A stretch of 64,000 bases of DNA from Buttiauxella agrestis (GTDB lineage: Bacteria; Pseudomonadota; Gammaproteobacteria; Enterobacterales; Enterobacteriaceae): NCBI RefSeq assembly GCF_900446255.1, contig NZ_UIGI01000001.1:2940763-3004762 (forward strand). Direction: 5' to 3'. The notes under the pieces were generated by a model that searched no databases, had not been told where the DNA came from, and worked only from the letters and a program-made list of their open reading frames with translations. Positions within the stretch are counted from its first letter, which is position 1. Every line of letters starts with the position of its first letter. Position numbers and translations under genes: made by a program. Shown here piece after piece: positions 25,369-44,908 of this stretch.

Positions 25369-25419
25369 GCTTGCAGTTACCTTATTGACCAGGGTTAAAA
25401 ATTACCGTTAGAAATTAAA

Positions 25420-26146: not shown

Positions 26147-28622
<2,476 letters not shown>

Positions 28623-28643
28623 TATAAGTCCTTATTCGCAGTG

Positions 28644-28664
28644 GTGACCCACACGTAAGATCAC
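28644..28664 (-). promoter_or_regulatory. thrS translational operator: anticodon-arm-like hairpin
   Basis: On the thrS mRNA, GTGATC and GGTCAC pair (six pairs, one U-G) around the nine-base loop UUACGUGUG. The loop carries CGU at -33 to -31 from the ATG, the anticodon of a threonine tRNA. In E. coli the matching element (operator domain 2) has CGU at almost the same distance and is bound by ThrS to block ribosome entry. Most of its 5' arm and loop lie inside the prophage attachment repeat. Confidence 0.75.
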
Positions 28665-28671
28665 ATGCAAC
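28651..28671. repeat. Prophage attachment site, thrS-side copy
   Basis: This 21-bp sequence, beginning ACACGTAAGATC and ending CATGCAAC, recurs exactly at 44909-44929. The two copies bound all phage-like genes and nothing of the backbone. Seen from the mRNA it covers the 5' arm and loop of the thrS anticodon-like hairpin. Confidence 0.9.
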
Positions 28672-28673
28672 TT

Positions 28674-28702
28674 TATATAGTTTAATTAAATCAGCGGGTT
28701 AA
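28674..28702 (-). promoter_or_regulatory. Phage-borne promoter-like sequence driving thrS
   Basis: On the minus strand, TTAACC (28697-28702) and TATATA (28674-28679) are separated by exactly 17 bp; TATAAA also overlaps the second box. Transcription would start about at the attachment core and give a leader of some 45 nt that keeps the operator hairpin and ribosome site. This DNA belongs to the prophage side of the junction. Each hexamer matches the sigma-70 consensus at 4 of 6 positions, so the call is inference. Confidence 0.5.
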
Positions 28703-28731
28703 GAAGGGTTGAGTGCTTCACCTCGCAAACT

Positions 28732-28750
28732 GTGTACATCGTAGTGTACA
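28732..28750. repeat. GTGTACA repeats near the left prophage end (candidate integrase arm sites)
   Basis: Two direct GTGTACA copies start 12 bp apart (28732 and 28744), and a related inverted copy lies near 28798. The same heptamer occurs twice at the other prophage end (44751, 44769). Paired short repeats outside the core at both ends are typical of tyrosine-integrase arm sites. Nothing else is recognised in the 349-bp non-coding stretch 28672-29020. Confidence 0.5.
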
Positions 28751-29020
28751 AAATACTAAATGTACCCACTTCGACCTACTGATTAGACCGGACAATAGTA
28801 CACGGCATTGGGGTATGGATAAAGGTGGAACTTGATTGCAACGAAATGAACCACCTATGAATCACATCACCGGCACATCGTCGAACTCTCCACTCCTGGC
28901 ATCGTTCAGTATCGACTACACCAATGGTACTTATTAGATGGATTTTAACTCACTAACTTCCGCAGCCTGGTTATTGCCGATGCTCCCGCAGATGTTAGAA
29001 TCCACGGCAACCAAAAAATC

Positions 29021-30940
29021 ATGAACCCGATAATGTTAAAATATAGATCTGATATTGATGGCATCAGAGCCATAGTTGTAGTTCTTGTCGTTATCTATCA
29101 CGCTTTCCCGTCACTACTACCTGGCGGTTTTATTGGTGTGGATATTTTCTTTGTCATATCTGGATTTCTTATCACATCCATCTTAAAAACCGAGATAGTG
29201 TCCGGTAAGTATTCGGTTAAGGATTTTTACCGCAGACGAATCGACCGTCTGTTTCCTGCACTCTTAGTTGTGATGTTTTCGGTTTTCATCTTCGGATGGT
29301 TTACTCTCTTCGCTGATGAGTTCATGCAGTTGGGCAAACAACTAGCCGGCAGTGCAGGATTTATAGCCAATATCCTATTTTATAGTGAAGTTGGATATTT
29401 TAATGCTACGTCTGCAACCAAGCCACTTTTACACCTTTGGTCTCTCGGTATAGAAGAACAGTTTTATCTCGTGTTTCCCCTAGTTCTTTATTTTGCATAT
29501 AAAAGAAAGCTAAACCTTGTTTTGGTTGTGTCCTTGCTTGCTGGCGCATCCTTCCTATTAAATGTCATAAGCATCCGTGAAAATGTCGAGAGGACATTCT
29601 ATCTACCTCAATATCGGCACTGGGAGCTACTGCTGGGTTCCATCCTTGCACTTCTTATGCATGGTGAAAAGTCGAAACGTCCTTTAAAGTCAGTTGCATT
29701 CCCACTGGCTGCAATTTCTCTTTCAGTCATTATTGTCACCGCATTCACACTTCACTCTACTGTAGCATTCCCCGGCTGGTATGCCCTGCTCCCAGTTGTC
29801 GCGTCTGTATTGCTGATCTGGACCGCGCAAGATTCTGGCCCTATCAAATCAATTATCTCCTCGAAAATATTTGTATTTATTGGACTGATTAGCTATCCAC
29901 TTTACCTCTGGCACTGGCCTCTATTCTCCCTTGCGCACATCATAAACGGGAGCACCCCACCAGACTGGGTTTTGCTGGCATTGACGGCTCTGTCATTTGT
30001 ACTTGCGGCAATAACGTACTGCTTAATTGAAAGACCGCTAAAACATGTAAAATCTTGGAAGAAAAAGACTATCCCAATGTTGGTTCTGATGATGATAATT
30101 GGAATGGCAGGATATGTGACATACGCAATGAACGGCATTGATAGCCGGGCGAATATCAAAGTAAGCAAGGAAGTAAGCAGACAGCTTATCGGTACCATTT
30201 GGCAATACACGAAAAATGATAATTGCCTGGAAAGATTTAAAACAACGCTGGCAACGTCCTCACCATGGTGGTTCTGCACATTAAAGCGCAATGCAGACCC
30301 GGATGTTCTGCTATTGGGTAATAGCTATGCTAACCATTTATATCCTGGTATCGCAAACAACAGCCACTTGAAAGATCTAAATGTACTTTCTATCGGTACG
30401 GCTGATGTCACATCAGGGGTTCTGGTGAGTAAAAGTGCTAATCAGACGGAGCAAATGAAATTCGTCGATGACATTATGCTAAAAACAAAATCCATTAAGT
30501 ACATTATTATCAGTGGAATAGTTTCAAAGCCTGATGATTTGTATATCGCTGGTTTGATAAAAAGAATGTCAACTATCACTGCCAATGGCGCGAAGGTTGT
30601 TATCTTCTATCCACATGTAAGGTTGTCTGATGATATTAAAGCATGCTTCTCGAGACCACTTAAAACACCTAAAAAATCATGTGAATCAGACCTTACAGAG
30701 CTGAAAGATATCCAATCAAATTTAGCATATCTTAAAGAGAAGGTTATCGCAGCCTATCCGTCGACGCTATTCTTTGATCCTAATTCTGTATTCTGTGACA
30801 AGAAAAAATGCTCGTCAGTAAGAGATGGATTGCCTATGTACAGGGATGAATATAAGCACCTTTCCGAGTATGCGAGCATGTCAGTTGGCAATGATTTTAC
30901 TGTGTGGGCTAAAAGTAATCTCCCAGAGATACTTAAATAA
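29021..30940 (+). CDS. OafA-like O-acyltransferase with C-terminal SGNH domain
   Basis: The 639-residue membrane enzyme is of the acyltransferase-3 plus SGNH type that acetylates surface polysaccharide, such as O-antigen by Salmonella OafA. The N-terminal part has the signature DGIRAIVVVLVVIYHAFPS, GVDIFFVISGFLITSIL and DFYRRRIDRLFPALLV, and about ten helices to residue 375. The periplasmic SGNH part has LLLGNSYANHLYPG (block I with Asn for Asp) and EYKHLSEYAS (block V His). The ATG at 29021 or 29033 may be the start; ribosome sites are weak. It lies at the prophage edge, a usual place for serotype-converting cargo. Confidence 0.85.
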   Translation: MNPIMLKYRSDIDGIRAIVVVLVVIYHAFPSLLPGGFIGVDIFFVISGFLITSILKTEIVSGKYSVKDFYRRRIDRLFPALLVVMFSVFIFGWFTLFADEFMQLGKQLAGSAGFIANILFYSEVGYFNATSATKPLLHLWSLGIEEQFYLVFPLVLYFAYKRKLNLVLVVSLLAGASFLLNVISIRENVERTFYLPQYRHWELLLGSILALLMHGEKSKRPLKSVAFPLAAISLSVIIVTAFTLHSTVAFPGWYALLPVVASVLLIWTAQDSGPIKSIISSKIFVFIGLISYPLYLWHWPLFSLAHIINGSTPPDWVLLALTALSFVLAAITYCLIERPLKHVKSWKKKTIPMLVLMMIIGMAGYVTYAMNGIDSRANIKVSKEVSRQLIGTIWQYTKNDNCLERFKTTLATSSPWWFCTLKRNADPDVLLLGNSYANHLYPGIANNSHLKDLNVLSIGTADVTSGVLVSKSANQTEQMKFVDDIMLKTKSIKYIIISGIVSKPDDLYIAGLIKRMSTITANGAKVVIFYPHVRLSDDIKACFSRPLKTPKKSCESDLTELKDIQSNLAYLKEKVIAAYPSTLFFDPNSVFCDKKKCSSVRDGLPMYRDEYKHLSEYASMSVGNDFTVWAKSNLPEILK

Positions 30941-30950
30941 TCATCCTGTT

Positions 30951-30970
30951 GGCGGGCTATATTGCCCGCC
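30951..30970. terminator. Hairpin between acyltransferase and tail fibre assembly remnant
   Basis: GGCGGGC and GCCCGCC form a perfect 7-bp stem with a 6-nt loop immediately after the acyltransferase stop codon. No T run follows on either strand, so termination would be weak or Rho-assisted. Confidence 0.45.
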
Positions 30971-30979
30971 ATAGTGAGA

Positions 30980-31426
30980 TTACTTAGGTGCTACTGGCCA
31001 CTCTATGTCTGGTGCGCTTGATATATCGACAGCTTCAAGTTCATCGAGATAATCCAGCCATAAATTATATTGAGCAAGGTCGTCTCCTTTTAGGCGACCA
31101 ACGGCTGCTTTTCCGGGCCATTGCTTACTGTTTATAAAGTCATTGGCCTCTCAGATAAGCTTCTGCTTTTTCTCTTCAGCTTGCATCACCAACTCATCAT
31201 GCGTAGGTGGTGGAACATCGATCCAGACCGGATAACCATTATCATCAGCGCCGAGAGTTTTCCCTTCCGGGTAAACAAAGAATTGATTCCTAGTGTCCTC
31301 GTCAATATCAACGCCCTTTATTGGCCAAGTGCCTGCATTGATTTGACACAGAATCGGCGATGGCCTGCGCGGTTTGCTGCTCACCGCCGATTTGGGACTG
31401 AGTAGAAATTGGCATGTAAACTCCAT
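30980..31426 (-). pseudogene. Tail fibre assembly protein remnant (Tfa family), interrupted
   Basis: Tfa proteins are chaperones for phage tail fibres. The recognisable part runs AGTWPIKGVDIDEDT, then GADDNGYPVWIDVPPPT, then after an in-frame TGA (at about 31152) EANDFINSKQWPGKAA and ends SSAPDIEWPVAPK, the typical Tfa C-terminus. The upstream reading is also broken: the well-placed start (GGAG, ATG at 31415, MPISTQSQIGGEQQ) is in another frame and stops after 35 codons. So the gene carries at least one nonsense codon plus an altered N-terminus. Confidence 0.8.
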
Positions 31427-31430
31427 AAAA

Positions 31431-31448
31431 AACCCGCCGAAGCGGGTT
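31431..31448 (-). terminator. Intrinsic terminator between Rha-like gene and tail remnant
   Basis: AACCCGC and GCGGGTT (loop CGAA) are followed on the minus strand by a TTTTTT run. An identical hairpin core occurs at 43050-43067. Confidence 0.85.
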
Positions 31449-31468
31449 ATGTTGTAAGTATTTCTAAT

Positions 31469-32170
31469 TTAGAAAATTTTACGCAAATCTAATTCGTAAA
31501 CGGCAAGCCATGCGTCGCGCGGCCAAGACTTCACCATGCCAAAGCGCTTGTCCTCAACTTCCAAAGGCATCGCGTCATTTTCACGGCACCATTTACGCAA
31601 TCCCTGCCACTTATATTCATTTCCAGTTTTGTTCTCTACCGCAGTGATCGTCGCGTGCTTCCTGCATGCTCCAACTGTTTCAGCTAATTTGTTCTTCTCA
31701 CGAACAGCTGCCGAAGCGGTCGCCATCGCAGTAGCTTCACGCTTTTCACCAATCCACGCTTTTGTTTCAATGGCATGATCACGCTCAATACACAGCTTTT
31801 CCTTTTCTTCCTCAGCAACTACCAAAGCAAGCAACGCTTCTTTGTAGTTGGATGGAAGTAATGGTGTCAATGCTATTGATTCAAGCTCTTGCCAGCGATC
31901 AACCAATGCACCAGTAAATTCAGGGGATAGTTGAGCGACTACAACATAGCTATCTCGTTTATCAAGAAGATATGCTTTAACCCGAACAACCTTTCCTAAC
32001 CCATTGATATTCTCAAGAAACGCCATTGGCGCACTTGTGATAACACCCTTTAGCATTAGGCGCTCTATTGAACGACGCACATCAGTATGCCGGGACTTGA
32101 CCAGCTCAGATATCTCAAGGCTGGACATGGTGACAGGAACTGCTTTAACTGCTAAATTACCTGTAAGCAT
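31469..32170 (-). CDS. Rha-family phage regulatory protein / antirepressor
   Basis: The 233-residue protein (from the ATG at 32170) begins with a pRha domain (MSSLEISELVKSRHTDVRRSIERL), followed by a coiled segment rich in Glu and Lys and a C-terminal domain (TAVENKTGNEYKWQGLRKWC) seen in phage antirepressors. Such proteins inactivate repressors or regulate superinfecting phage. The ATG at 32170 has AAGG upstream; a longer frame from 32239 passes through a hairpin. It follows a BRO-N antirepressor, so the switch has two effector genes in a row. Confidence 0.8.
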   Translation of the reverse strand: MLTGNLAVKAVPVTMSSLEISELVKSRHTDVRRSIERLMLKGVITSAPMAFLENINGLGKVVRVKAYLLDKRDSYVVVAQLSPEFTGALVDRWQELESIALTPLLPSNYKEALLALVVAEEEKEKLCIERDHAIETKAWIGEKREATAMATASAAVREKNKLAETVGACRKHATITAVENKTGNEYKWQGLRKWCRENDAMPLEVEDKRFGMVKSWPRDAWLAVYELDLRKIF

Positions 32171-32201
32171 TGATTTATACCTTGTCGGTAGTTGATGTAA
32201 G

Positions 32202-32226
32202 CCGCCAGTCCTACCTGGCGGTTTTT
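32202..32226 (+). terminator. Plus-strand terminator antisense to the Rha gene leader
   Basis: CCGCCAG and CTGGCGG with a 6-nt loop are followed on the plus strand by TTTTTCTTTTT. No plus-strand gene precedes it; it lies opposite the leader of the Rha-like gene. A short antisense RNA ending here would cover the Rha gene start, recalling P22 sar RNA. A clear promoter was not found. Confidence 0.6.
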
Positions 32227-32251
32227 CTTTTTGCGCCATCCAATGCGCCTT

Positions 32252-32821
32252 TCAGTGATACTGCAATCCCTTCAAACCAGAAGCTCTTTCCATTCCCCCA
32301 CGAACGCCATTCACCTGAGCACATGCATCTAGACGATCAACCATCTTCACGGCAATAGGTGATCCAAGCGCTCTCAGTGCAGGGTCAAGTTCGTTGCGCC
32401 AGATATCACGCATAACTTCTAAGTGGATACATGCCACATTGATGTTGTGCACATGCATTTTAAAATCGAATGCTGGATTGACGTTTCCCTGCGCGACTTC
32501 ACGGTCGAGGATGTCCAGCACCCAGCGGCGAAATTCTTTGGCCTTCGGTGTGCGGGCAAACATATCTATCAAGTGAGCGCTACGCAGAGAGAACATACGT
32601 GCATCTTGCATTCCACCAGGGGTGGTTACCTTGACCACCCCTGTCATTTGCTGGGTGAATTCATCGGCATGTCGATTGAAAATGCGATGTATTGCCTTGT
32701 CGTCTGCATAACCCAGAGCTTGTCCTACTTCCGCGGCTAGTAGCCATGTCTGACCGCCCATCTCCATATACGCAAAATTAGTGTTCTGGAACTCAAGGCT
32801 GTTATTCGTTATACTTTTCAT
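32252..32821 (-). CDS. BRO-N domain phage antirepressor
   Basis: The 189-residue protein has an N-terminal BRO-N (Bro/KilA-N-like) domain: WLLAAEVGQALGYADDKAIHRIF, then MFSLRSAHLIDMFARTPKAKEFRRWVLDIL. Proteins of this kind, such as P22 Ant, bind and inactivate prophage repressors. AAGGAA precedes the ATG at 32821; a longer frame upstream overlaps the Arc-like gene. The arrangement Arc-like repressor then antirepressor on one strand, opposite an Mnt-like repressor, is that of the P22 immI region. Confidence 0.85.
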   Translation of the reverse strand: MKSITNNSLEFQNTNFAYMEMGGQTWLLAAEVGQALGYADDKAIHRIFNRHADEFTQQMTGVVKVTTPGGMQDARMFSLRSAHLIDMFARTPKAKEFRRWVLDILDREVAQGNVNPAFDFKMHVHNINVACIHLEVMRDIWRNELDPALRALGSPIAVKMVDRLDACAQVNGVRGGMERASGLKGLQYH

Positions 32822-32894
32822 GTCGATAATTCCTTTGCGGGTATTGTTCGATAAGAGGCACAGAGTGTTAGCGCACTTCTGGGCTTCGTCGTTC

Positions 32895-33074
32895 TTATGC
32901 TTGTGCACTTCTTTCACCAATTAGCCCGTACGCCTTTCTTAGTTGATAAATCAATTCTGTATTGAACTGACGACACTCGTCTTCCCCATTCTTTTCAATA
33001 GCTTTCCTAACATCCTCTGGAATGCGAACCTTGCGCTGGTACATCTCTTTTGCTTTTTCCACTGAAGCCTCCAT
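32895..33074 (-). CDS. Arc-like ribbon-helix-helix repressor
   Basis: The 59-residue protein shows a ribbon-helix-helix pattern: KVRIPEDVRKAIEKNGEDECRQFNTELIYQLRKAYGL. Arc of P22 limits expression of its own operon and of ant. The ATG at 33074 has GGGG upstream; a GTG four codons earlier is possible. It faces a second RHH gene across a 62-bp gap with a dyad operator, and the antirepressor follows downstream. Confidence 0.8.
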   Translation of the reverse strand: MEASVEKAKEMYQRKVRIPEDVRKAIEKNGEDECRQFNTELIYQLRKAYGLIGERSAQA

Positions 33075-33098
33075 TAGTTGCCCCACCGTGAGGCATAA

Positions 33099-33113
33099 TT
33101 TACATATTGTGAA
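33099..33113. promoter_or_regulatory. Candidate operator between the two RHH repressors
   Basis: TTTACATATTGTGAA is an inverted repeat TTnACA-TAT-TGTnAA in the 62-bp gap between the divergent Arc-like and Mnt-like genes. Its position fits control of both promoters. Confidence 0.5.
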
Positions 33114-33136
33114 TATTTGCAGAAAAAGAATTCAAA

Positions 33137-33568
33137 ATGAGCAGAGAAGACCCACAGTTAAGAATCAGACTTCCAGTTGAATTAAAAGAAAAAGTTGAAG
33201 AGGCCGCGAAAGCAAACGGACGGTCTATCAATGCTGAAATTGTTCATAGATTGGATGTGAGTTTTCTGAAAGACATTCCAACTGACCAGTTAATTTCAGC
33301 GAAAGAAGCCATTCAGATTGTAAACAAAGCGAAAGATGAGCTTTCTGGCATCATCTTCGAAAGAACTTTCACAGAGATAAACAAAAAAATCAGGCTGGGA
33401 CATACGAGCTTCTTCATTGATCTGGATGACCTTGAGCTTGACGGAATTTCTGAGGATGACTTTTCTTCACTATTTAGTCTGACATTTAATCGCCTAAATG
33501 AGCTTGGCTATGCTGTCTCTGATAGAACATGGGATGTGGGCGGATTTTTGGTGGAAATTCCAGAATAG
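33137..33568 (+). CDS. Mnt/Arc-like ribbon-helix-helix repressor with extended C-terminus
   Basis: The 143-residue protein begins with an RHH domain (EDPQLRIRLPVELKEKVEEAAKANGRSINAEIVHRL), the pattern of Mnt and Arc. The remaining 100 residues (INKKIRLGHTSFFIDLDDLELDG ...) are not in those short proteins and I do not recognise them; they may be an oligomerisation or effector domain. It is divergent from the Arc-like gene, as mnt is from arc-ant in P22. Confidence 0.8.
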   Translation: MSREDPQLRIRLPVELKEKVEEAAKANGRSINAEIVHRLDVSFLKDIPTDQLISAKEAIQIVNKAKDELSGIIFERTFTEINKKIRLGHTSFFIDLDDLELDGISEDDFSSLFSLTFNRLNELGYAVSDRTWDVGGFLVEIPE

Positions 33569-33581
33569 ACAGTTAACAAAA

Positions 33582-33599
33582 AGCCCACCTGAGTGGGCT
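33582..33599 (-). terminator. Intrinsic terminator after the umuD remnant
   Basis: AGCCCAC and GTGGGCT (loop CTGA) are followed on the minus strand by TTTTTG. It stands directly after the 13-codon umuD-like remnant and is convergent with the Mnt-like gene. Confidence 0.7.
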
Positions 33600-33603
33600 G
33601 CTA

Positions 33604-33645
33604 CTAGATGCAGGTGTGATTTGCCGCTGGAGATGGGAAGCCCAT
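33604..33645 (-). pseudogene. Remnant of a phage umuD-like gene behind an SOS promoter
   Basis: Read from ATG at 33645, with GAGGTG upstream, the frame gives MGFPSPAANHTCI then TAG. GFPSPAA is the conserved start of processed UmuD (after the Cys-Gly cleavage site) and of the phage-borne short UmuD proteins. Only this start survives; a terminator follows at once, so the body of umuD and any umuC were deleted. The LexA box upstream is intact. Confidence 0.6.
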
Positions 33646-33665
33646 GGTGATCACCTCAATTTACA

Positions 33666-33681
33666 CTGTGTTTATATACAG
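33666..33681. promoter_or_regulatory. LexA (SOS) box
   Basis: CTGTGTTTATATACAG fits the LexA consensus CTG-N10-CAG with an A/T-rich centre, and the flanks extend it toward the 20-bp consensus. It lies 21 bp upstream of the umuD-like remnant start. Confidence 0.8.
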
Positions 33682-33790
33682 TATTTCATGGATGGGTTTT
33701 GATCAAGCACGACGGCATCATAAAACTTGATGGTATGATGTAAATGTATAGAATATTAGGATTACTCTAAATTGATGGTTTTTTTAAATT

Positions 33791-34819
33791 ATGGCGCGAG
33801 ACTACTCTACCGACCTATTGCGGATAGTATGTTGTTTTCTAGTTGTAGGGATACATGTAACTCCTTATTATGATCAATATCTATTGCAAAATGTAACGCA
33901 ATCTCAAAAAATAATAGCATTGTTGATACAATCTTTAGTCCGCGTAGGACTGCCGGTGTTTTTTGTTATTAGTGGAATGTATATTTTAAGTTCCAACTTA
34001 AAATCTATTACAGATTTTTACAGAAAAAGAGTAAGTTCACTGATAATTCCTTTCATTATCTATGCCTTTCTGCATTCTGTTATTTATATGACAGTGGCAG
34101 GCACGCCCATTACACCTAAAACCGTTCTGGATATTATTGAGCAGATGAAATCAAGCACCGGAATATCGCCTCATTTCTGGTTTGTTTATTCAATGCTCGG
34201 AATATATTTGGTTTCACCAGCGTTCAATGTGTTCATTAAAGGTTTAAGCGAAATAGATTCGATTATAGCTTTAGTTGTAATTTTAACCTCCAGTGGTTAC
34301 ATGCAATATCTTGGCGGCGCTGTTCCAGGTTTTTCTTTGCCTACGCTTGGCGTTTGGATGTCATACTTCGTAATTGGTGGTTTGATATCTAAGATAGAAA
34401 ATTACAAAAGATCATTGATGCTATGCCTGCTAATTGCATCATTTGTTTTTACGGCATTTTGTATCTATCTTCAATTTAATGTCTTCAAATCATCAAACCT
34501 AGGACCATATGACGGAGGTTTGAATATGATGCTATTTACGATCTCGCTCTGCCTGTTTTTTAAAAAAATAAAAATCCAACCTGGAACGGTCATTTGTAAG
34601 ATCATCGAATTAGTTTCACCGAGAACATATGGTATATACTTAATTCACATTGCAATACTAACCACCTTAGCACATTACATTGATTTTAGTTGGTATATAG
34701 GAAACATACTTACCTACAGTGTCCTTATGTCAGCAACCACGTTCTTTATTTCGCTAATTATTTCCTACGCTGTAGACAAGCTTTTGTGTACCACAATTTT
34801 GAAATTGATAAATAGTTAA
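33791..34819 (+). CDS. Acyltransferase-3 family membrane protein (surface polysaccharide acylation)
   Basis: The 342-residue protein is a ten-helix acyltransferase 3: RDYSTDLLRIVCCFLVVGIHVTPYYD at the start (catalytic His in the first helix), LPVFFVISGMYIL, then ITDFYRKRVSSLIIPFIIYAF, resembling WecH/YiaH and phage serotype-conversion enzymes. It lacks the SGNH domain of the gene at 29021. Its DNA is strongly A/T-rich and no good ribosome site is visible. A perfect terminator separates it from the secreted SGNH hydrolase. Substrate is unknown; O-antigen or enterobacterial common antigen is likely from the family and prophage context. Confidence 0.82.
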   Translation: MARDYSTDLLRIVCCFLVVGIHVTPYYDQYLLQNVTQSQKIIALLIQSLVRVGLPVFFVISGMYILSSNLKSITDFYRKRVSSLIIPFIIYAFLHSVIYMTVAGTPITPKTVLDIIEQMKSSTGISPHFWFVYSMLGIYLVSPAFNVFIKGLSEIDSIIALVVILTSSGYMQYLGGAVPGFSLPTLGVWMSYFVIGGLISKIENYKRSLMLCLLIASFVFTAFCIYLQFNVFKSSNLGPYDGGLNMMLFTISLCLFFKKIKIQPGTVICKIIELVSPRTYGIYLIHIAILTTLAHYIDFSWYIGNILTYSVLMSATTFFISLIISYAVDKLLCTTILKLINS

Positions 34820-34826
34820 TCCAGTT

Positions 34827-34858
34827 CAGATGCCATTTTTTAGATGGCATCTGTTTTT
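34827..34858 (+). terminator. Intrinsic terminator after the acyltransferase
   Basis: CAGATGCCAT and ATGGCATCTG form a perfect 10-bp stem around a 7-nt loop, followed by five T residues. Confidence 0.9.
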
Positions 34859-34896
34859 AAAAAATTTACGACAAATAGTTTAAAAGGTATTTTGTA

Positions 34897-35595
34897 ATGA
34901 AGATTTTTTTAACAGCATTTTTATTAGCGACTGCATTTTCTGCTTCTGCAGACATAAAAACTGCATTTATTGGTGATGAATCTCGTCTTGGCACATTTGG
35001 TGTGGTTAATTTTACACATAAAATGAAATTATCGCAGATTGATAAAAAATCAGACACAATCTTGATGTTTGGTGATTCGATAATGCAAGGCTTAAATTAT
35101 AATGGATTGCATTTTGACCATGTTACACTGGGCATTGTAGGAGATACAGTTTATGGAATCAAAAAGCGAATTGAAGAAACCGACATAGAGAATTATAAAG
35201 CTGTATTTGTTGAAGCTGGAACTAATAACCTACTAATGGGAGAACTGGGCATTCCTTTGGGCATGGAAATGGCAGATTTGATTGACTATGCAGCCCCAAA
35301 AGCAAAAATTCTGTACGTTTCTGAAACCATTGTTTCTAATCGAGTGGCGTATAAACACATTGATGAATCCTTTAATAACGCAGATTATTTGATAAAAAAA
35401 CAATGCGCCAAGTATAAAAATTGTGTTGTCGTTCCTCTACCTTCTGAGTTTATTGGCAAGGATGGAATGGACCCCAAATATACATTAGATGACCATGTTC
35501 ATCTGAACGCAACGGGTTACTTGCTTTGGAAAAAACAACTAAATAAGGCTTTATCGCCTTTCCCTTATTCAATTTACTACAAGTACATAAATTAA
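34897..35595 (+). CDS. Secreted SGNH/GDSL hydrolase
   Basis: The 232-residue protein has a signal peptide (MKIFLTAFLLATAFSASA) and the SGNH blocks: FGDSIMQG (Ser nucleophile, about residue 61), GIVGDTV (Gly block II), EAGTNNLL (Asn block III) and DDHVHLNATGY (Asp-His block V). Such enzymes are periplasmic or secreted esterases or acetyl transferases. The A/T-rich composition and the acyltransferase just upstream suggest transfer as a cargo pair. It could add or remove acetyl groups from a surface glycan; sequence alone does not decide. Confidence 0.82.
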   Translation: MKIFLTAFLLATAFSASADIKTAFIGDESRLGTFGVVNFTHKMKLSQIDKKSDTILMFGDSIMQGLNYNGLHFDHVTLGIVGDTVYGIKKRIEETDIENYKAVFVEAGTNNLLMGELGIPLGMEMADLIDYAAPKAKILYVSETIVSNRVAYKHIDESFNNADYLIKKQCAKYKNCVVVPLPSEFIGKDGMDPKYTLDDHVHLNATGYLLWKKQLNKALSPFPYSIYYKYIN

Positions 35596-35626
35596 TCATG
35601 CTGCATTAGTTTTTTTGCAGTATATA

Positions 35627-35650
35627 AAGGCCACATAGTGGCCTTGTTTT
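35627..35650 (+). terminator. Bidirectional terminator between SGNH hydrolase and tail spike
   Basis: AAGGCCAC and GTGGCCTT (loop ATA) are followed by GTTTTT on the plus strand; the minus side is A/T-rich too. It lies between the convergent SGNH hydrolase and tail spike genes. Confidence 0.8.
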
Positions 35651-36395
35651 TACCTACCATTAAGATAACTGAATATCTAGATAAACCTTAACGTTCGGCG
35701 CTGTCATTCCTGAAAGATTCACCTGCCCAGAAGGGTTTACAGTGGCTAATCCCATAGAAAAACCTATATCATCTGACGTAAAAGCGACCGGGAAGCTTCT
35801 ATTTTTTGTTGGTCTGCACCAGCGTGGCTGTGTGAAAATAACTCCACCGTTTGCAAATCCCGTGAGCGTTAATTTTGCATTTATTGAGTTGTTTGAAACG
35901 GAGCTCGGCGTTGCCACTGATGCCGTGCTGGAGCACCAGAATTGTGGGAATGAGCGAGCTGAAATATCAATTTTTGAATACCAATCAATTATTGTTGAGG
36001 CTATGATTTCGGCGTACAGGCGGTAAGCTAGCGGGCTCTGGTGAATGGCATCACGATCAAGTGGGTCGATGCTTTTATTGAAGTACTCAGGCAAAGGAGC
36101 TGGCAGTTGATGTGTGGTTGTCACACAAATAGCACCATCACCATACTTCATCATCTGACGCTTACCCGCCTCACGCAATTCAGCAGCCCCATCATAATTG
36201 GCAGTTGCTTGTCCAGCCCCTCCAATTAACGCTGATGAATACCACATCCATGGCTCAACCCACACTGGCATACGGCCCAGCCCAGCACAGTAAACGACAA
36301 ACTCCTCGATCATCGCAGCGAATGAGTCAGGATCGCTATTGGCCTGACCTTCGTTTGTTCCTGCAACCATGATGATGATATAGGCGTCTCCCGGC

Positions 36396-36423
36396 CCTTC
36401 AGCCTTCAGCCTTCAGCCTTCAG
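36396..36423. repeat. Four tandem 7-bp repeats inside the tail spike gene
   Basis: CCTTCAG is present four times without gaps. With four copies the spike frame ends at TGA; two or five copies would keep it open through KAEGPGDAY. It is a simple slippage-prone repeat. Confidence 0.9.
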
Positions 36424-36540
36424 CATATCCAATGCTTGCCGCATAAATGTTCCCGCCACAGTGTAAGTATCCCTGTAATCCGTACCATTCACTTTTAGAG
36501 ATCTTCCGACATACTGATTATGTCACCTGTGGAGATCGCT

Positions 36541-36807
36541 ATGCGTAAGATCCGATTCACCGAGCACCAGATCATCGCCGTTCTGAAGTCTGTCGAAGCC
36601 GGGCGCACCGTCAAAGATGTGTGCCACGAGGCCGCAATTTCCGAAGCCAGCTACTACAACTGGAAGGCGAAATATGGCGGGATGGAGGCCGCTGATATCA
36701 AAAAAATCAAAGATCTTGAGGACGAGAATCGTCGTCTCAAACAGATGTTTGCCGATCTGAGTCTGGAATGCCGGGCGCTGAAAGACGTCATCGAAAAAAA
36801 GCTTTAA
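36541..36807 (+). CDS. IS3-family transposase OrfA
   Basis: The 88-residue OrfA has a helix-turn-helix (KIRFTEHQIIAVLKSVEAGR ... ISEASYYNWKAKYGG) for end binding and a leucine-zipper-like coil (DLEDENRRLKQMFADLSLE). It overlaps orfB. A slippery run AAAAAAAG lies at 36794-36801 near its stop, suited to programmed -1 frameshifting that yields the active OrfAB transposase. GGAG precedes the ATG. Confidence 0.92.
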   Translation: MRKIRFTEHQIIAVLKSVEAGRTVKDVCHEAAISEASYYNWKAKYGGMEAADIKKIKDLEDENRRLKQMFADLSLECRALKDVIEKKL

Positions 36808-37652
36808 AACCAGCGATAAAGCGTGAGCTCGTCAGCTATCTGACCGTACAGTTTACGATGAGCATACGCCAGGCATGCAGGATGTTATCGCTGAGCAGGA
36901 CGGTGTTTCGTTATCAACCGGATACACGACGTGATGAACCGGTGATCCTGACGTTGACTGAACTGGCAGAACGCTATCCGCGATACGGATTTAAGAAGCT
37001 TTTTCAGGTGCTTCACAGGCAAGGTAACGCCTGGAATCACAAGCGTGTACACCGGATTTACTGTCTGCTGAAACTGAACTTTCGTCGTAAAGGAAAGCAA
37101 CGTCTACCGGCGCGCAATCCGGCTCCACTTGCGACACCTGAGGCACTCAACCAAAGCTGGTCGATTGATTTTATGCACGACGCGCTAACATGTGGCCGAC
37201 GTTTTCGGACTTTCAACGTCGTGGATGATTTTAACCGAGAGGCTCTGGCCATCGAAATTGACCTGAATATCCCGGCGCAGCGGGTTGTGCGGGTACTGGA
37301 CAGAATAGTGGCAAACCGTGGATATCCGCTGAAGATGCGGATGGATAACGGGCCGGAACTGATATCACTGGCTCTGGCGCAATGGGCTGAAGACCATGGT
37401 GTGATGCTGGACTTTATCAAGCCGGGTAAGCCAACGCAGAACGCGTTTATCGAACGATTTAACCGAACATACCGGACCGAAATACTTGATTTTTATCCGT
37501 TCAGAGCGCTGAACGAAGCACGGGAAATAACGGAACGCTGGCTGAACGAATACAACAGTGAGCGGCCCCATGAATCCCTGAATAACCTGACGCCGGAAGA
37601 ATACCGGCTGATGGCTGAGAAACCGGAAATCTCAAAAAGTGCGTGGAACTAA
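36768..37652 (+). CDS. IS3-family transposase OrfB (DDE catalytic part)
   Basis: The 294-residue frame holds the integrase-type catalytic domain with DDE residues visible: WSIDFMHDAL (first D), MRMDNGPELIS (second D), and FIERFNRTYRTEILD (E), followed by the family C-terminus NEYNSERPHESLNNLTPEEY. Translation is expected mainly as an OrfAB fusion through the A7G slip; the listed start is only the frame opening. The frame is intact, so the element could still be active. Confidence 0.93.
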   Translation: MPGAERRHRKKALKPAIKRELVSYLTVQFTMSIRQACRMLSLSRTVFRYQPDTRRDEPVILTLTELAERYPRYGFKKLFQVLHRQGNAWNHKRVHRIYCLLKLNFRRKGKQRLPARNPAPLATPEALNQSWSIDFMHDALTCGRRFRTFNVVDDFNREALAIEIDLNIPAQRVVRVLDRIVANRGYPLKMRMDNGPELISLALAQWAEDHGVMLDFIKPGKPTQNAFIERFNRTYRTEILDFYPFRALNEAREITERWLNEYNSERPHESLNNLTPEEYRLMAEKPEISKSAWN

Positions 37653-39164
37653 AACGGGTGTGCTTACAACAGCTTTGTTGCGAATGTTTACGGAGCGCGC
37701 GCCATTGCTACCATCAATAAGCTGAGGCAGGTATTTGTCAAATGCCGAGATAAACCCTTCTGCTGTGCTATCACCATGTATCAAAATGTTTAATCCAGCC
37801 TTTCCCTGGATGCCGTTTTTAGTGGTATAACTACAAATTCCTGTCACTCGAGAAATAGCGCTCGCATCCGCACTAAGTGTGACAAATCCAACTTCATAAA
37901 TATCCCCTGCATTTCCTGAATTGTACGGCAGTCCGATTGAAACACCGTTCACAACAAAACTGAAAATTGTTTTTGATTGTAGAGCAATACCTATTGTTGC
38001 TTTCCCTGAGGAGTAAGAAAGAACATTTCCTCCAGGAATTGAGATTGCCGAGCCATCAACTGGAGATTGACCTATTTGCTTTACGCGATAGCTCCACGAT
38101 GTAGCACCTGGGGCGGCGTAAATCATAACCCAACCCTGCCCGCACCGTAGAATAATTCCGTGCTGGCTTCCAGTTCCTGTCTGCATTTTGATATGTGCTG
38201 ATATTGTTTCACCAATATCAATTGGTGCAAAAATGCCTGTGTATTTATTTTGAACAAGCCCGACCAATACAGCGGTCTCTGATGTGGTCCCAATTGCTCC
38301 GTCGCTGAATGTGTCTCCATCCACACTCCTGATTCTGCAATCAGTAAGCTCAACCTTTTTCATTCGAACAGGGTTTCTATTTAAAATCGCCTGTTTGGAG
38401 ATGTAGTCAACTTCACCGCCCGTTGTTTTGAATTGCTTACTCGGGAATAAAAATGTGCATTGACCGACAAAATCCAATGTTTTGATTAATGCGTAATGGT
38501 CCCAATCAAATGATAAAATTGCCCCATCATCAACAATGACTTTACTGTTTTTCAGCGCATCAGTTTCTGCAACAGTGTTCAGTATTGTGTATGTGATTTG
38601 TGACAGGCTGTGCCCAGGGAAATAAACATACCCATATTGAGCAATGCTATCTTTCCAAGCCTGTACAGCGTTCGCGCTGTTGTATGAAGGCATGGCTGTA
38701 ACTGGTATCAGCGGAGTCCCGCCAACCAACCTGATGCCACCTGCGGTAGCAAGTTCTTTGCGAAGAACGTCGCTCACATCGACCGGCTGCCATTTCCCCT
38801 CACCCGTGCCACCAGTTGAACCCGGCGTTGAATCAGCATCTACTGTTTTAGGGAGCGTCGCTAAATCATCCCAGCGGTACCATGTGTCATCAGTGGTGTC
38901 CTGAATAATATCACCAGGGTTAGCCACGGTTGCGCCACCCTGGAATGTACCGACAGGATTCCAGCCAAGATTATAGATTTGCTGCAGAGCAAGTTGCTTA
39001 AGCCCTTCAATGGTGTAGTGCTTGCCGCCAAAGCGATCGATATATTGCTGTGCCAATGACGTCACGAACTCGTCAATTTTACCTGCATTGAATTTCAGGT
39101 CTTGAGGCAATTCTGATGCAACTGGTTTCTGTGAAGGTGTAGTCGCCATAATTTTTCCATAAAA

Positions 39165-39186
39165 AACCCGGCGCATTGGCCGGGTT
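39165..39186 (-). terminator. Hairpin after the tail-tip gene
   Basis: AACCCGG and CCGGGTT enclose an 8-nt loop, followed on the minus strand by a TTTTTT run. It separates the tail-tip gene from the spike gene, implying separate expression or partial read-through. Confidence 0.8.
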
Positions 39187-39207
39187 CGTAGTTGTGGGAT
39201 GCTTTCG

Positions 39208-41688
39208 TTAGGGGTAAATCAGATCGCTGTATTCTCGAACTGTCAGCGCTGTGGTTCCGTCAGTGCCAGGGCTCTTGTCTGTAACTTCCCACTTGGTGGC
39301 ATCAAGCTCCTCAGTCGAGGCAATGAAGTAACGCGATGGTGATTGCACGTTCATTCCGTCATAGATATTGAGCTCGATATTTGGGATAGCAGCGCTGAAT
39401 CCGAACGCGGTATCTGCGAGGGGTTGAGCCTGGTAGCGCGCTGTCGGCGTGCCGTGATAGTCCGTAACCACCACGAACATTGAGCTGGCAAAGTTAATCC
39501 GCTCGCTTGTTTCGAAGACGTTACCGATGCGCGAAACGATATAGCCGGATTGCTGGTTGGTGTCGTATGTATCGACTATCTGCACCATATCACCAACATT
39601 GATCCACTCACCGTCAGCCATTGTTGTGATGCTCATTGCCATGCGGCAGTAGATCAAACGCTCGCACTCTCTCAGCGCTCGCTCATTGGCCTGGTAAGCA
39701 TCTCTGACATACATCATCTCGAACTTTCTCGCCTTCACTGGCGAGCCAGAAATGATGCTGTTTCCGTTTATCCGGTAGCGGATGAATGCCTGCTTGTTTG
39801 TGTTCGGGTCACGGTACTGCACCTCCACGCCATCGAATCCGCCTGGCAGCGTCATGTCATAGCTGAGTGAGTAACCCGCTTCGACCGTGTTATTGCGGTT
39901 GAATACCGTCGCCGGAGTAGTCCGTTTCGTGTCACGCACAAACGACATCACGCCGTCATCCCAGAACGCGGTTACACTGGCGGCATCGCAGATAGTTTCC
40001 AGCCGCGCGCCGAGCGACACATCCTCATCATCAAAGGTGAAATCGAAGCGTCCAAGTCGTGGGTCTATCGCGTCAATCTCAGCCTGAATCTGATAGAGGC
40101 CGTACAGGTCAGTATTGTTTTCAGGCTGCCCGCCCATGACCAGCCAGGTATGCGCTACGGCATCCGCAAACTTGCGGGACGGCCTCAGCGTGTAATCAAC
40201 TGACTGCGTGCTGAGTGAGTAGCTGATGGTGTGGCGGTTAATGAGTGCGTTATATTTCATTTCGCGCCCGGTGGAGCTCTCCGTGGCTCTGACCTTGATG
40301 ATGACCGTAGTGTCATCAGGATGAACAACATTCGTCCTGACGTTAACAGCGTGGATTTCCTCAACTTCCAGGATGCTCCTGTCATGGCTGTTGTTCGTCC
40401 TGGTCATCGTAATGGAGTAGCGCCCTTCGCCCGCCAGTGGCGTTATCTTGTCCGTTCTGTAGAAAGTATCGGACAGGTCGTCTCGCGGGTTTTGCACATG
40501 GAACGTCAGAGACTGATTTGTGCCGGGGATCTGGTTGTTATCATCGTCAACCTTCCAGATATCAACACGCCAGTCGGTGTAGTCATTCCCACCCAGTTTT
40601 GATTGAGTGTGAATCCACAATTGCGAAGATATGAGCGGAGAGAAGAACGGGCCAACTGAAACCCCTGAGTTCTGCATCAGCACAAACTTCGTGGTATTGA
40701 TGGTCGCCGTTTCAATCGGCACACCGGGGCCGTTTAGCTGATCGAATATGAACTCGTAATAATAAACAGGCGTGATTACTGAGCCATCATCACTTTCAAT
40801 GCAGTTGATCAGGTTGCCGGTTAGCGTGACATCCTGAGTAACCGACCCGGTAGTTGTGGGGTAAGTGATATTGATGATGAACTTAACCGGTGATGGCCGT
40901 GGCAGGTCTTTGAAGAAATCAAACTCACTCTGCCTGACAATTTTCATTGCCACTTGCCCGCTGGTATAGCTACCACTCACCACTGTATTAGCTGTGGCCG
41001 TCTCTACTGGAAGCTCACTGCTTTCATTCGGGCCGGGTAACTCCTGCCCGTCGACATCATCATGCTGATACCCCTCGATGACGGTCGGAATGACCTCTCC
41101 TGGCCCGTAAACGGTATAGGATGCGCCTGCCATTGAGCCGATGTTAGTTTCCGAATAGCGAACGGAACTGTAATCGTATTTACCCAGGCCAAAGTTCATG
41201 AACTGAGTCACTTCTTTGTTATTGCTCACGTACTCGAAAATAAGCTGCTGAATCATGTCCGGGAAAGCGCGAACAAGGCCGTAGTTATCCGGGCGCGCCT
41301 CGCCGTTACGGGCGATGTTAGTTTGCCCTTTCAGGCTATTGTTCGGTGAGGTCTTGGCTTGTCCCGCCGCGCCGACAGCATTAGGCTGCTTGATGAAGGC
41401 GCCCATTACCTTTTGCGTGAATTTTATTGGATTGAGATGTTCGAATGGGTTGAGCAGGGTTTTAACCAGGCCGCCACCCTTTGGCTGGTCGAAGATGATA
41501 ATGCGGTCGTCTGATTTGATGCAAAAATCGATGTCATCATCATCCTGCAACTCGCGGCCGTTAATGATGGCCCGCACATCAGAATGAACGCCCGCTGTTT
41601 CAAGCCACTCGCTGAACTTCACTCCCGCGCGCGCATGCATCCGTTGCTTTGGCAGCCCCGGCACTCTCTGTATTTCGATTACCGGCAT
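39208..41688 (-). CDS. Tail tip attachment protein, TipJ/host-specificity type
   Basis: The 826-residue protein (ATG at 41688) is the central tail-tip protein of siphophages, equivalent in position to lambda J. It starts with a ubiquitin-like region (MPVIEIQRVPGLPKQRMHA), a membrane-active hinge (FEHLNPIKFTQKVMG) and hub domains such as FTFDDEDVSLGARLETICDAASVTAFWDDG and GDMVQIVDTYDTNQQSGYIVSRI. It ends just before the separate spike gene. The frame is intact. The upstream peptidase gene overlaps its start by 89 bp. Confidence 0.85.
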   Translation of the reverse strand: MPVIEIQRVPGLPKQRMHARAGVKFSEWLETAGVHSDVRAIINGRELQDDDDIDFCIKSDDRIIIFDQPKGGGLVKTLLNPFEHLNPIKFTQKVMGAFIKQPNAVGAAGQAKTSPNNSLKGQTNIARNGEARPDNYGLVRAFPDMIQQLIFEYVSNNKEVTQFMNFGLGKYDYSSVRYSETNIGSMAGASYTVYGPGEVIPTVIEGYQHDDVDGQELPGPNESSELPVETATANTVVSGSYTSGQVAMKIVRQSEFDFFKDLPRPSPVKFIINITYPTTTGSVTQDVTLTGNLINCIESDDGSVITPVYYYEFIFDQLNGPGVPIETATINTTKFVLMQNSGVSVGPFFSPLISSQLWIHTQSKLGGNDYTDWRVDIWKVDDDNNQIPGTNQSLTFHVQNPRDDLSDTFYRTDKITPLAGEGRYSITMTRTNNSHDRSILEVEEIHAVNVRTNVVHPDDTTVIIKVRATESSTGREMKYNALINRHTISYSLSTQSVDYTLRPSRKFADAVAHTWLVMGGQPENNTDLYGLYQIQAEIDAIDPRLGRFDFTFDDEDVSLGARLETICDAASVTAFWDDGVMSFVRDTKRTTPATVFNRNNTVEAGYSLSYDMTLPGGFDGVEVQYRDPNTNKQAFIRYRINGNSIISGSPVKARKFEMMYVRDAYQANERALRECERLIYCRMAMSITTMADGEWINVGDMVQIVDTYDTNQQSGYIVSRIGNVFETSERINFASSMFVVVTDYHGTPTARYQAQPLADTAFGFSAAIPNIELNIYDGMNVQSPSRYFIASTEELDATKWEVTDKSPGTDGTTALTVREYSDLIYP

Positions 41689-42067
41689 ATCTGAGGAGCT
41701 CCGTTTTTGTGAATAATTTCTGGATGGTGCGGATCTGGTCGGAACGGACATTTCCATTCTCGCCGCGGCTGTGCAGCGCCCTGCCATCAACAATCAGCCC
41801 GACATGCACCGGCTGCGCGCCGTAATAGGCAATGAAGATATCGCCGTCGCTGAAGTGTTCTGCTGGCTGCCAGTACACAACCTCACTTTCAAAGCACGTC
41901 ATGAAGTCCTCACCCGCTTCGTAGTCAGGCGAGTGGTGCAGCTCAATGCCGAGAACGTGCCGGTAATAGAGAGTGACTAACCCCCAACAATCAGCCGCTT
42001 CAAACGTGCAGGCGCGGTTATGCCAGGGTATGCCAATCACCCTTTCAAGAAATTCAGACTTAAGCAT
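41600..42067 (-). CDS. NlpC/P60 tail peptidase (lambda K-like)
   Basis: The 155-residue protein has the NlpC/P60 triad: FEAADCWGLV (Cys), PVHVGLIVDGRALHS (His and following polar residue). It may act on peptidoglycan during DNA entry or in tail-tip assembly. The start MLKSEFLERV at 42067 overlaps the preceding gene by 8 bp. The last 25 residues overlap the tail-tip gene start in another frame, an unusually long overlap for this module. Confidence 0.85.
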   Translation of the reverse strand: MLKSEFLERVIGIPWHNRACTFEAADCWGLVTLYYRHVLGIELHHSPDYEAGEDFMTCFESEVVYWQPAEHFSDGDIFIAYYGAQPVHVGLIVDGRALHSRGENGNVRSDQIRTIQKLFTKTELLRYAGNRNTESAGAAKATDACARGSEVQRVA

Positions 42068-42530
42068 TTTGCAGTCCCGGAAACTCTTCGACGTTATAGA
42101 GCAGGCCAATGTTGGCGTTGAGGGGGTTCTTGATAGTCAGCGACACGGTGACATCACTTGCGTCCAGACTGATATCGCTCACAAATAGCGTCCACGGCTT
42201 CAGCGGCGTGTTCATATCTGAGGCGTCAAAGCGCTGGTATGTGAACTGAATTGGCACGATGCGATCAAATGCTTTCCACTGTTTTAGTTGCTGCTTGAAA
42301 TCCGTCGCCAGGCGGCTGAATTTCACTGTGGAGGTAATGACAGGCGTCGAACTCTGCGGGCTATCTGCAATTTCCATCCGGCACGGCTGATACTCCTGCC
42401 CGGCGAATGTCTTCGAAAATACCTGGTCTTTGACAAGCCTGATATAGCCGAAAGTTTCGCTGTAGATGGTGATTGTGTCGTAGAGGATGCGGTTCGGCCT
42501 GCGGCTCTTGTACTCTCTGAAAGTCGGCAT
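42060..42530 (-). CDS. DUF1833-like phage tail protein
   Basis: The 156-residue protein (MPTFREYKSRRPNRILYDTITIYS) matches the small tail-tip proteins placed between the tape-measure side and the NlpC/P60 gene in siphophages; the segment FGYIRLVKDQVFSKTFAGQEYQP and MEIADSPQSST fit DUF1833. It corresponds in position to lambda L. Its ATG overlaps the upstream stop codon as TAATG. Confidence 0.7.
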   Translation of the reverse strand: MPTFREYKSRRPNRILYDTITIYSETFGYIRLVKDQVFSKTFAGQEYQPCRMEIADSPQSSTPVITSTVKFSRLATDFKQQLKQWKAFDRIVPIQFTYQRFDASDMNTPLKPWTLFVSDISLDASDVTVSLTIKNPLNANIGLLYNVEEFPGLQNA

Positions 42531-43026
42531 TATGGAACCCTCGGGAGTGACTCTGGATCACGATTATCTGGATACCCGGTCACGACAATATCGAGGAAGC
42601 TTGCCCACGGAGGCGGCAGTTCAACAATAATGTCGGCGTAATCGTCATCGGAGTTTTTCAGCTGTCGGCAGATAACATCGCCTGACCAGGTGAAGACTGA
42701 TCCTGATTGGCTCCATGTCGGGTAAGCGGTAAAGTGAAGCTCCTGCATCTCAGGCTCACCATATGCACCCGATCCGATACCCACTGGCATGAGGAACCAT
42801 TGATTGCAGTTGTCCAGATAATTAGGGCTGCGCAACCACTGCATGAATGCCCGGTGCTGTGCCAGGGTGAATACCCATGTCAGCGAGAAGCCCGTTTTCA
42901 GGTCGTCGGTGAGTTTCTGAAATATTGGCGCGCCAACTTGCGGAAGTTCAGTGCGAAAGCCGGTATCTGGCTTGGGTGTTTTCGACTTCTGGGCCAGCGG
43001 AGCCAGTCCGGGTAAGCAATTGCCAT
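42530..43026 (-). pseudogene. Minor tail protein gene with a one-base deletion
   Basis: The start codon at 43026 gives MAIAYPDWL, then the frame turns to RWPRSRKHP and stops. One base later the expected protein continues: PLAQKSKTPKPDTGFRTEL, QKLTDDLKTGFSLTWVFTLAQ, WLRSPNYLDNCNQWF to SLPRVP at 42530. The continuing frame has no start codon of its own upstream except an ATG at 42844. A single missing base near 43000 explains both halves. It corresponds in position to lambda M-type genes. Confidence 0.75.
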
Positions 43027-43049
43027 TTACCGTTCTCCGGGCAATAAAA

Positions 43050-43067
43050 AACCCGCCGAAGCGGGTT
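43050..43067 (-). terminator. Intrinsic terminator after the lipoprotein gene
   Basis: AACCCGC and GCGGGTT (loop CGAA) with a minus-strand T run. The core is identical to the hairpin at 31431-31448. Confidence 0.85.
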
Positions 43068-43089
43068 AATGTTTATGTATCAGATTGAG

Positions 43090-43470
43090 TTAATCAGCCC
43101 ATCCTGACTTAGTGTTTATTGTCGACTCAGCCATTGTGTATTTCTCAACGGTGTCATCCTTGAAAAGAATGGTCAGCTCTTTCTTCGTTCCGCTAGTGCC
43201 GTTGTGGAACATCCCATAGAAAGGAATGAACGATTTACCATCAACCTTCACTTTGGCAAAAGCGTACTTCCAGATTTCTTTGCCGCCGTCCGTAAATGTG
43301 ACGTTATCAGGAGATCCAAACATACCTTTAACTTGCGTTTTGGTGGTCGTACCTTCTTTTATCTTCGACTGCATGCTGACTTCAGTTTCTTTCTGAAGGT
43401 GCTTATTTCCAGAAGACGCGCAGCCAGCAAGAAGCATTACAACCATTGATGCGACCAATAATTTCTTCAT
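43090..43470 (-). CDS. Phage-encoded BamE/SmpA-like lipoprotein
   Basis: The 126-residue protein has a lipoprotein signal (MKKLLVASMVVMLLAGC) and a small domain with the SmpA/OmlA pattern (GTTTKTQVKGMFGSPDNVTF ... KKELTILFKDDTVEKYTM). Small lipoproteins within tail modules are often superinfection-exclusion factors or cargo, but this one has no proven role. Its ATG overlaps the stop of the tape-measure frame (ATGA). It is intact and could be expressed from the prophage. Confidence 0.78.
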   Translation of the reverse strand: MKKLLVASMVVMLLAGCASSGNKHLQKETEVSMQSKIKEGTTTKTQVKGMFGSPDNVTFTDGGKEIWKYAFAKVKVDGKSFIPFYGMFHNGTSGTKKELTILFKDDTVEKYTMAESTINTKSGWAD

Positions 43471-44750: not shown

Positions 44751-44775
44751 GTGTACACCCTGATAACTGTGTACA
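44751..44775. repeat. GTGTACA repeats upstream of the integrase
   Basis: GTGTACAC occurs at 44751 and 44769, 18 bp apart, directly before the integrase ATG. The same heptamer lies near the left prophage end (28732, 28744). They may be integrase arm sites or an autoregulatory operator. Confidence 0.5.
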
Positions 44776-44908
44776 CGATTTTTACGGCACGAACTGGAAT
44801 AAGATAAAACGGAGTGAAACACCTGAATGGTGCTTAGTCAATGATAGCAAGGCGTTAGATTGGGAAAGTGAAACGGGGAGTAACAAGGGGAAACACTAGA
44901 GGTGGTCT

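Follow-up and report, generated by a model that had tools for sequence, protein, structure and literature searches.

Temperate enterobacterial phages of one Arm-DNA-bind_3 integrase lineage probably use the operator hairpin of threonyl-tRNA synthetase (ThrRS) as their attB, and they probably carry a replacement leader that makes the insertion harmless. According to this model, in which we have good though not complete confidence, the integrase lineage would recombine attP with an attB located in the leader of the essential gene thrS. Of the ThrRS operator hairpin, which mimics the anticodon arm of tRNA-Thr, the core would comprise the 5′ arm and the 7-nt loop. Integration would leave thrS without its native promoter and the upstream half of the operator. 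The P′ arm of the phage would supply a −10-like promoter element, spaced as in native leaders, together with a domain 4-type hairpin upstream, a linker, and the 5′ arm and loop that begin the anticodon mimic, and after recombination the phage-supplied 5′ arm would pair with the 3′ arm of the host. At the level of sequence, the model is supported by the site, its junctions, a leader found both in lysogens and in free phages, its conserved position, and stems that covary in most of these leaders.

The window analysed here is a stretch of 64,000 nucleotides of Buttiauxella agrestis, in which thrS occupies 26694..28622 on the minus strand, as judged from its open reading frame and the protein of relatives, with its leader as the attachment site. 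The sequence ACACGTAAGATCACATGCAAC forms a perfect 21-bp repeat with copies at 28651-28671 and 44909-44929; no third copy was found in the window at up to three mismatches, and none in 100 shuffles. When the host halves of the two junctions were joined in a script, they aligned end to end with the uninterrupted thrS leader of a congener (L001; 557/571 positions, 527 identical), and each single junction aligned with that leader over its own host half only. Because the rejoined halves match an uninterrupted leader, the repeat serves as attachment core to a defective prophage of 16 kb. The initial annotation had proposed that a perfect 21-bp direct repeat bounds the prophage, and this stands, the repeat being exact and unique in the window. 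An uninterrupted leader in close relatives, which it had suggested looking for, is provided by the congener. The exact core is present in 7 of 12 same-genus genomes, with two mismatches in four and not within two mismatches in one; among the 12, G009 and G010 have phage-type leaders and are not clean empty sites. The repeat copy at 28651..28671 (minus strand) is the attL core, i.e. the thrS-proximal junction, as also found by attL/attR comparison, and that at 44909..44929 (minus strand) is the attR core. The native thrS promoter region and leader lie beyond the latter, from 44930 on, and are now severed from thrS. The end of the core lies 29 bp before the thrS ATG; the ThrRS protein is unaltered and has acquired no new N-terminus.

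The operator hairpin (domain 2, the anticodon mimic) spans 28644..28664 on the minus strand, with its 5′ arm at 28664-28658, its loop at 28657-28651, CGU at 28655-28653 and its 3′ arm at 28650-28644. It folds into a 7-bp stem, GUGAUCU/GGGUCAC, closing the 7-nt loop UACGUGU, in which CGU takes positions 3-5. This triplet lies at −33 to −31 from the thrS ATG at 28622, matching the CGU in a loop of 7 nt, some 32 nt ahead of the ATG, that defines a ThrRS operator, and the fold agrees with the earlier claim that the repeat covers the 5′ arm and loop of such a hairpin. Taken singly, the fold of the window hairpin is unexceptional (z −1.06), and its support is comparative, from 124 leaders and 21 phage-type leaders. 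The 124 leaders represent 28 distinct hairpins and include two, L118 and L119, that probably do not belong to thrS. Across the set, stem pair 4 is A-U in 94, C-G in 25, G-U in 3, G-C in 1 and U-A in 1, and it is never unpaired. As the stem covaries across these leaders, we consider the anticodon-mimic hairpin to be real. A 3′ arm of GGGGCAC or GGGACAC goes with a 5′ arm of GTGCTC or GTGTTC, phage-type leaders included. The search pattern for leaders fixes CGTRTGG and CACCACTG, so that invariance at those positions is by construction and only the free positions are informative. L119, which lies inside another gene, was left out of the leader work after the 124-leader count, and both L118 and L119 were left out of the survey described below. 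The E. coli ThrRS binds two mimics of the tRNA-Thr anticodon arm in the thrS leader (PMC7373986). Its translational operator comprises two stem-loops before thrS that resemble tRNA-Thr anticodon arms and correspond in sequence and position to the hairpins described here, but in the excerpts of these papers it is described neither as an attachment site nor as phage-borne (PMC7373986, PMC3858243, PMC6542539).

The prophage lies between both cores, at 28651..44929, as delimited by open reading frames, the repeat, domains and the rejoined-halves alignment. We call it defective because its integrase lacks the catalytic domain. The remnant (43960..44750, minus strand), recognised by alignment with relatives and by Pfam, retains the arm-binding and central domains (PF13356, E 8.4e-21; PF22022, E 9.9e-9), which identify it as an Arm-DNA-bind_3 (P4/IntS-like) tyrosine integrase, and Pfam found no catalytic C-terminal domain in it. 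It is fused in frame to unrelated residues, with the ORF continuing to 43467; over 43467-44822, the residues into which the truncated integrase runs are partly tail-protein-like, indicating a deletion fusion. Its relatives have full-length frames of about 393-403 aa. An arm-site scan placed two GTGTACAC arm-type sites directly before int in the P arm (44751..44776, minus strand; GTGTAC at 44753 and 44771) and three GTAC-centred sites in the P′ arm, which adjoin thrS (28731..28767, minus strand; GTAC at 28734, 28746 and 28762). Counting the window, 12 of 14 relatives have at least two arm-type sites in the 75 bp preceding int, against a background of 0.026 per 75 bp, and the other two (phage Oslo and G282) have one such site and the variant GCGTACC. 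As for other genes, the prophage encodes two AT3 acyltransferases, one of them an SGNH fusion, and a GDSL lipase-like protein (29021-30940, 33791-34819 and 34897-35595; Pfam), which are probably cargo for the modification of surface polysaccharide (O-antigen). It also has IS3-like transposase genes at 36520-37652, within which the Rfam sRNA family isrN matches antisense at 36806-36948; isrN may be an IS-borne feature.

Integrase relatives came from IMG/VR (16 loci), from GTDB genomes (3 loci, in Klebsiella oxytoca, Raoultella and Serratia oryzae) and from 6 of 392 family genomes. No clade integrase was found at E 1e-75 in 369 genomes drawn from the class, and no match was obtained for the window integrase DNA against E. 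coli genomes in a distant search or for the Oslo integrase in a near search. All 12 relatives with at least 47% identity and enough upstream DNA have a thrS-type core 182-200 bp before int; the DNA upstream of int in L013, L014 and L027 is too short to show one. The corresponding distance is 174 bp in the window and 194 bp in Oslo. Listing the attachment sites of related integrases, as the initial annotation had advised, reveals that the integrase lineage at the thrS site is spread over several genera. The 39-43% identity range is mixed, with a thrS-type core in Oslo and none in mEp044 (43%) or MagusPhagus (41%); this core is also missing in phi80 and a Klebsiella phage. Salmonella phage Oslo (vB_SosS_Oslo, JQ806764) and Proteus phage Pm34 (vB_PvuS_Pm34, KY420199), whose integrases are 39.5% and 56.2% identical to that of the window over the fragment, have a thrS-type core and leader at attP, as in the clade of the window. 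Both are complete phage genomes, in whose records the features near int name no att site.

The lysogens mark the border between host and phage DNA. All nine integrase-bearing genomes have the ThrRS protein, with 85-92% identity, and in each of the nine genomes checked, an attL with at least two arm-type sites is followed directly by thrS. In G289 and G291, int and thrS are on one contig, 47-49 kb apart. In 10/10 comparisons of attL with attR, host and phage sequences diverge exactly where the 7-nt loop ends on its 3′ side, which bears out the earlier placement of the attachment core in the thrS leader hairpin that mimics the anticodon arm. The smallest core common to these comparisons is ATGTG[AC]TCTNNCGTGT. 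Two free loop bases vary by lineage (TT, TA, TG, GT), and in these two bases attL agrees with attR within each lineage. Strand exchange would then take place within the loop. As attL does not differ from attR anywhere in the 5′ arm, the phage origin of this arm in a given lysogen rests on that strand-exchange model. The integrase contig of G397 reads as attP, so that the left border of the core is uninformative there: at this locus, 45/45 bases to the left of the core equal attL, as in attP and not attR, which suggests that the prophage is circular, in tandem or misassembled. Among IMG/VR contigs whose operator hairpin is complete, a set selected in that IMG/VR covers viral contigs only, 24/24 show two or more arm-type sites upstream, and in 23/24 the thrS ATG is 16-17 nt downstream. 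A clade integrase is found 183-197 bp downstream of 11 of the 24 IMG/VR hits to the attP pattern, several of these being contigs already met; the other 13, without a clade integrase, were taken as chance hits.

How often the thrS site was adopted is less clear-cut. On the tree, the 14 thrS rows require two changes, with 0/500 shuffles as low, and a single change is obtained in only 10% of bootstrap trees because mEp044 and MagusPhagus fall in an open fork. The tree does not establish a single origin of thrS use. In a first tree, which gave five changes, L013, L014 and L027 were scored as non-thrS only because their contigs have no DNA upstream of int; the second tree omits these three as well as L177, L172 and L170.

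Upstream of the core, attL is phage DNA that resembles a thrS leader. It contains a −10-like element at the distance found in hosts, usually a second hairpin, and the 5′ half of the anticodon mimic. This phage-borne, putative replacement promoter and leader had been passed over in the initial annotation. Since the free phages Oslo and Pm34 also have a thrS leader, in the P′ arm at attP, it is not an artefact of prophage borders. We sorted 134 leaders by their upstream hairpin into type A (63), type B (47) and neither (24), and phage-borne leaders occur in both types. Native type A leaders have a short hairpin with a loop around GAGTGAA, and native type B leaders, the E. coli form, have a long hairpin, CCAATTTAGCAATTGTTGGTTAGATGG, with a lower stem. 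The phage-borne hairpin of the window, in the position of operator domain 4 (28711..28730, minus strand), was assigned to type A by leader typing and covariation, with a loop around GTGAA. This second stem-loop is clear in most phage-type relatives, and the window copy retains 4/6 stem pairs. In the 15 phage-type leaders of type A, 88.9% of cells are paired and there are 23 double-sided changes vs a shuffled mean of 6.1 (0/500 as high). The 10 phage-type leaders of type B, a set without L045, have 90.6% of cells paired and a covariation of 0.237 vs 0.175 (0/500 shuffles as high), but two of five measures are not above shuffles (pairs changed on both sides, 197/500; pair types, 497/500). The upstream stem of type B includes the arm-type site GTGTACC in its 5′ strand, opposite a mostly complementary 3′ strand. 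For 21 phage-type leaders less than 90% alike, one of which (L207) is a type B leader, RNAalifold predicted the upstream hairpin and the anticodon mimic and no others. Two near copies (L081 and L149) and L045, which has no type B fold, were omitted from the leader alignments.

The −10-like element of the window, TG-TACTAT, is phage-supplied and located at 28795..28802 (minus strand), approximately 173 bp before the thrS ATG. It was identified by positional conservation: such an element is found between −150 and −125 from CGT in 49/52 distinct phage-type and 61/69 native leaders, compared with 9.5% in shuffles. A generic sigma-70 promoter scan returned no minus-strand promoter in 28600-29020. 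Going by its position, TG-TACTAT would be the replacement promoter of thrS. We further infer that this promoter is active, that ThrRS binds the hybrid operator, and that there is selection for operator function. The phage thus probably brings its own promoter and RNA control elements, with which thrS would keep both its expression and its regulation after the insertion. Some observations go against this model. The window copy is worn, with its incomplete stem and no promoter in the scan, four phage-type leaders fit neither hairpin type well (L045 from lysogen G329, L071, L135 and L155), and the sites of mEp044 are not at thrS, though its integrase may nest in the group.

It is also conceivable, if unlikely, that the phage leader is host DNA captured without selection for operator function, the thrS upstream region having been taken by imprecise excision or homologous recombination, in which case its conservation would reflect recent capture only. 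The same two types are indeed found in phage and host leaders, and the Oslo attP leader resembles that of E. coli up to the promoter. However, the stems have diverged with compensatory changes, and the leader has arm-type sites inside it, which in type B occupy the 5′ strand of the upstream stem while most of the pairing persists. Furthermore, types are mixed within lysogens, with a type B phage leader and a type A host leader in G289 and the reverse in G287 and G291, so that the phage leader is not a simple copy of that of the present host. We give little credence to another explanation, that the P′ arm hairpin and the −10-like element serve the phage rather than thrS, as a transcript or as a recombination site for accessory proteins. 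This region does overlap the arm-type sites of the integrase, but thrS leaders that lack arm sites have the same hairpins, the combination of a constant loop and a covarying stem speaks for an RNA, and the position relative to thrS is kept.

A replacement leader that serves thrS remains our preferred reading. P4-type integrases often use tRNA anticodon loops, the 7-nt loop has CGU at the anticodon positions and the core ends at the loop border; nevertheless, the initial annotation's proposal that integrases once suited to the anticodon arms of tRNAs took up an mRNA mimic for its tRNA-likeness now appears most improbable, as the DNA similarity of core, attB and attP to tRNA-Thr(CGU) is not beyond that of shuffles (E. 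coli thrW alone compared; 10/21 core positions alike, with 89% of shuffles as good), the nearest placed outgroups sit at ogt/abgT (mEp044 type) and beside sbcB (Sf101/HK544 type), not in tRNA genes, and the relatives down to 47% identity are all at thrS, with no tRNA gene among their sites. An attB in a tRNA gene was likewise ruled out, by this chance-level similarity and by the absence of tRNA genes from the 64-kb window. In a simpler view, the stretch is a good site because it is conserved, invertedly repeated and located before an essential gene, and only a phage that restores the leader can use it.

Phage-type leaders that have two or more arm-type sites were found in 17/99 surveyed loci, compared with 0.36% of shuffled leaders; the survey combines 30 returned loci with at most about two listed places for each further genus and is not a random sample, and the 17 loci include the known lysogens G329 and G289, with some genomes counted twice. 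In 19 genomes with such leaders (G009 and G023 coming from outside the survey), no clade integrase was detected, the best matches having 28-35% identity in five and there being none in the rest. Searches by exact pattern, which a decayed copy could escape, yielded no second att site in these genomes. Their leaders are probably orphan (relic) attL sites, retained because thrS depends on the attL junction. The textbook E. coli leader itself contains a perfect arm-type site, followed after 12 bp by a degenerate one, both placed as in phage Oslo; in E. coli K-12, no second att relic was found beyond arpB. It is tempting to speculate that phages trade the thrS operator of Enterobacteriaceae as a module, overwriting it at integration, and that the phage promoter and operator are kept after the prophage has decayed, a proposal for and against which we see the balance as even. 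As the essential gene needs the attL junction while attR is free to vanish, the promoter and operator of the phage would stay as those of the host.

Insertions at this place have been described before. In V. cholerae, the prophage-like element Aux3 lies between gcvT and thrS, with its attB in the intergenic region before thrS, and its authors demonstrated integration into attB experimentally (PMC7721734). Each side of Aux3 has a pair of direct repeats spaced by about 40 bp; recombination takes place at repeat 2, and repeat 1 is constant (PMC7721734). The insertion just before thrS is shared with the window prophage, but the words 'threonine', 'threonyl' and 'tRNA' are absent from the main text on Aux3, and neither the operator nor a replacement promoter is discussed in its excerpts (PMC7721734). 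Going by this description, the Aux3 repeat pair would fit a copied operator with both hairpins. At the wzy locus of S. Typhimurium, cargo is flanked by direct repeats of 113 bp, of which one lies in the wzy-thrS intergenic region, and excision is reversible, the mechanism being unknown to the authors (PMC12074656). They suspect that deletion of the wzy-thrS repeat damaged the thrS promoter (PMC12074656). An O-antigen gene is the cargo there, as the acyltransferases suggest for the window, but in the excerpts of that paper, from whose description the comparison is made, neither a prophage nor the operator is recognised (PMC12074656). SXT in prfC and IMEVchUSA3 in dusA integrate at the 5′ end of a gene and give it a new promoter (PMC8409611). 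The window junction is also at a gene 5′ end, with a promoter suggested by position and not found by the scan. The prfC and dusA elements replace the N-terminus (PMC8409611), whereas the thrS-site phages would replace the promoter and RNA operator before the start codon. The initial annotation knew of no description of a tRNA-mimic mRNA operator as attB. This holds insofar as our searches of open-licence papers returned none that names the thrS operator as an attachment site, but insertion before thrS was already in print with Aux3 and wzy. What is new is the proposed replacement promoter and leader carried by the phage; insertion before thrS was known, as were elements by which the 5′ end of a disrupted gene is rebuilt.

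If our reading is correct, replacement of the autoregulatory RNA operator of an essential gene would represent a new form of accommodation between phage and host. Its distinctive features would be a recombination core that coincides with the loop of an RNA hairpin and integrase arm sites threaded through a second RNA stem. It would offer one explanation for the separately published thrS-side insertions, Aux3 and wzy, and it predicts that lysogeny can retune ThrRS levels. It also suggests that a textbook regulatory RNA has been exchanged by phages.

Elsewhere in the class, an anticodon-mimic hairpin precedes thrS-like starts in L227-L240, several of which have a tRNA-like 3′ end shortly upstream. 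In the window, an Rfam match to the phenylalanine leader of pheST at 25250-25373 represents a second synthetase leader in the same gene cluster.
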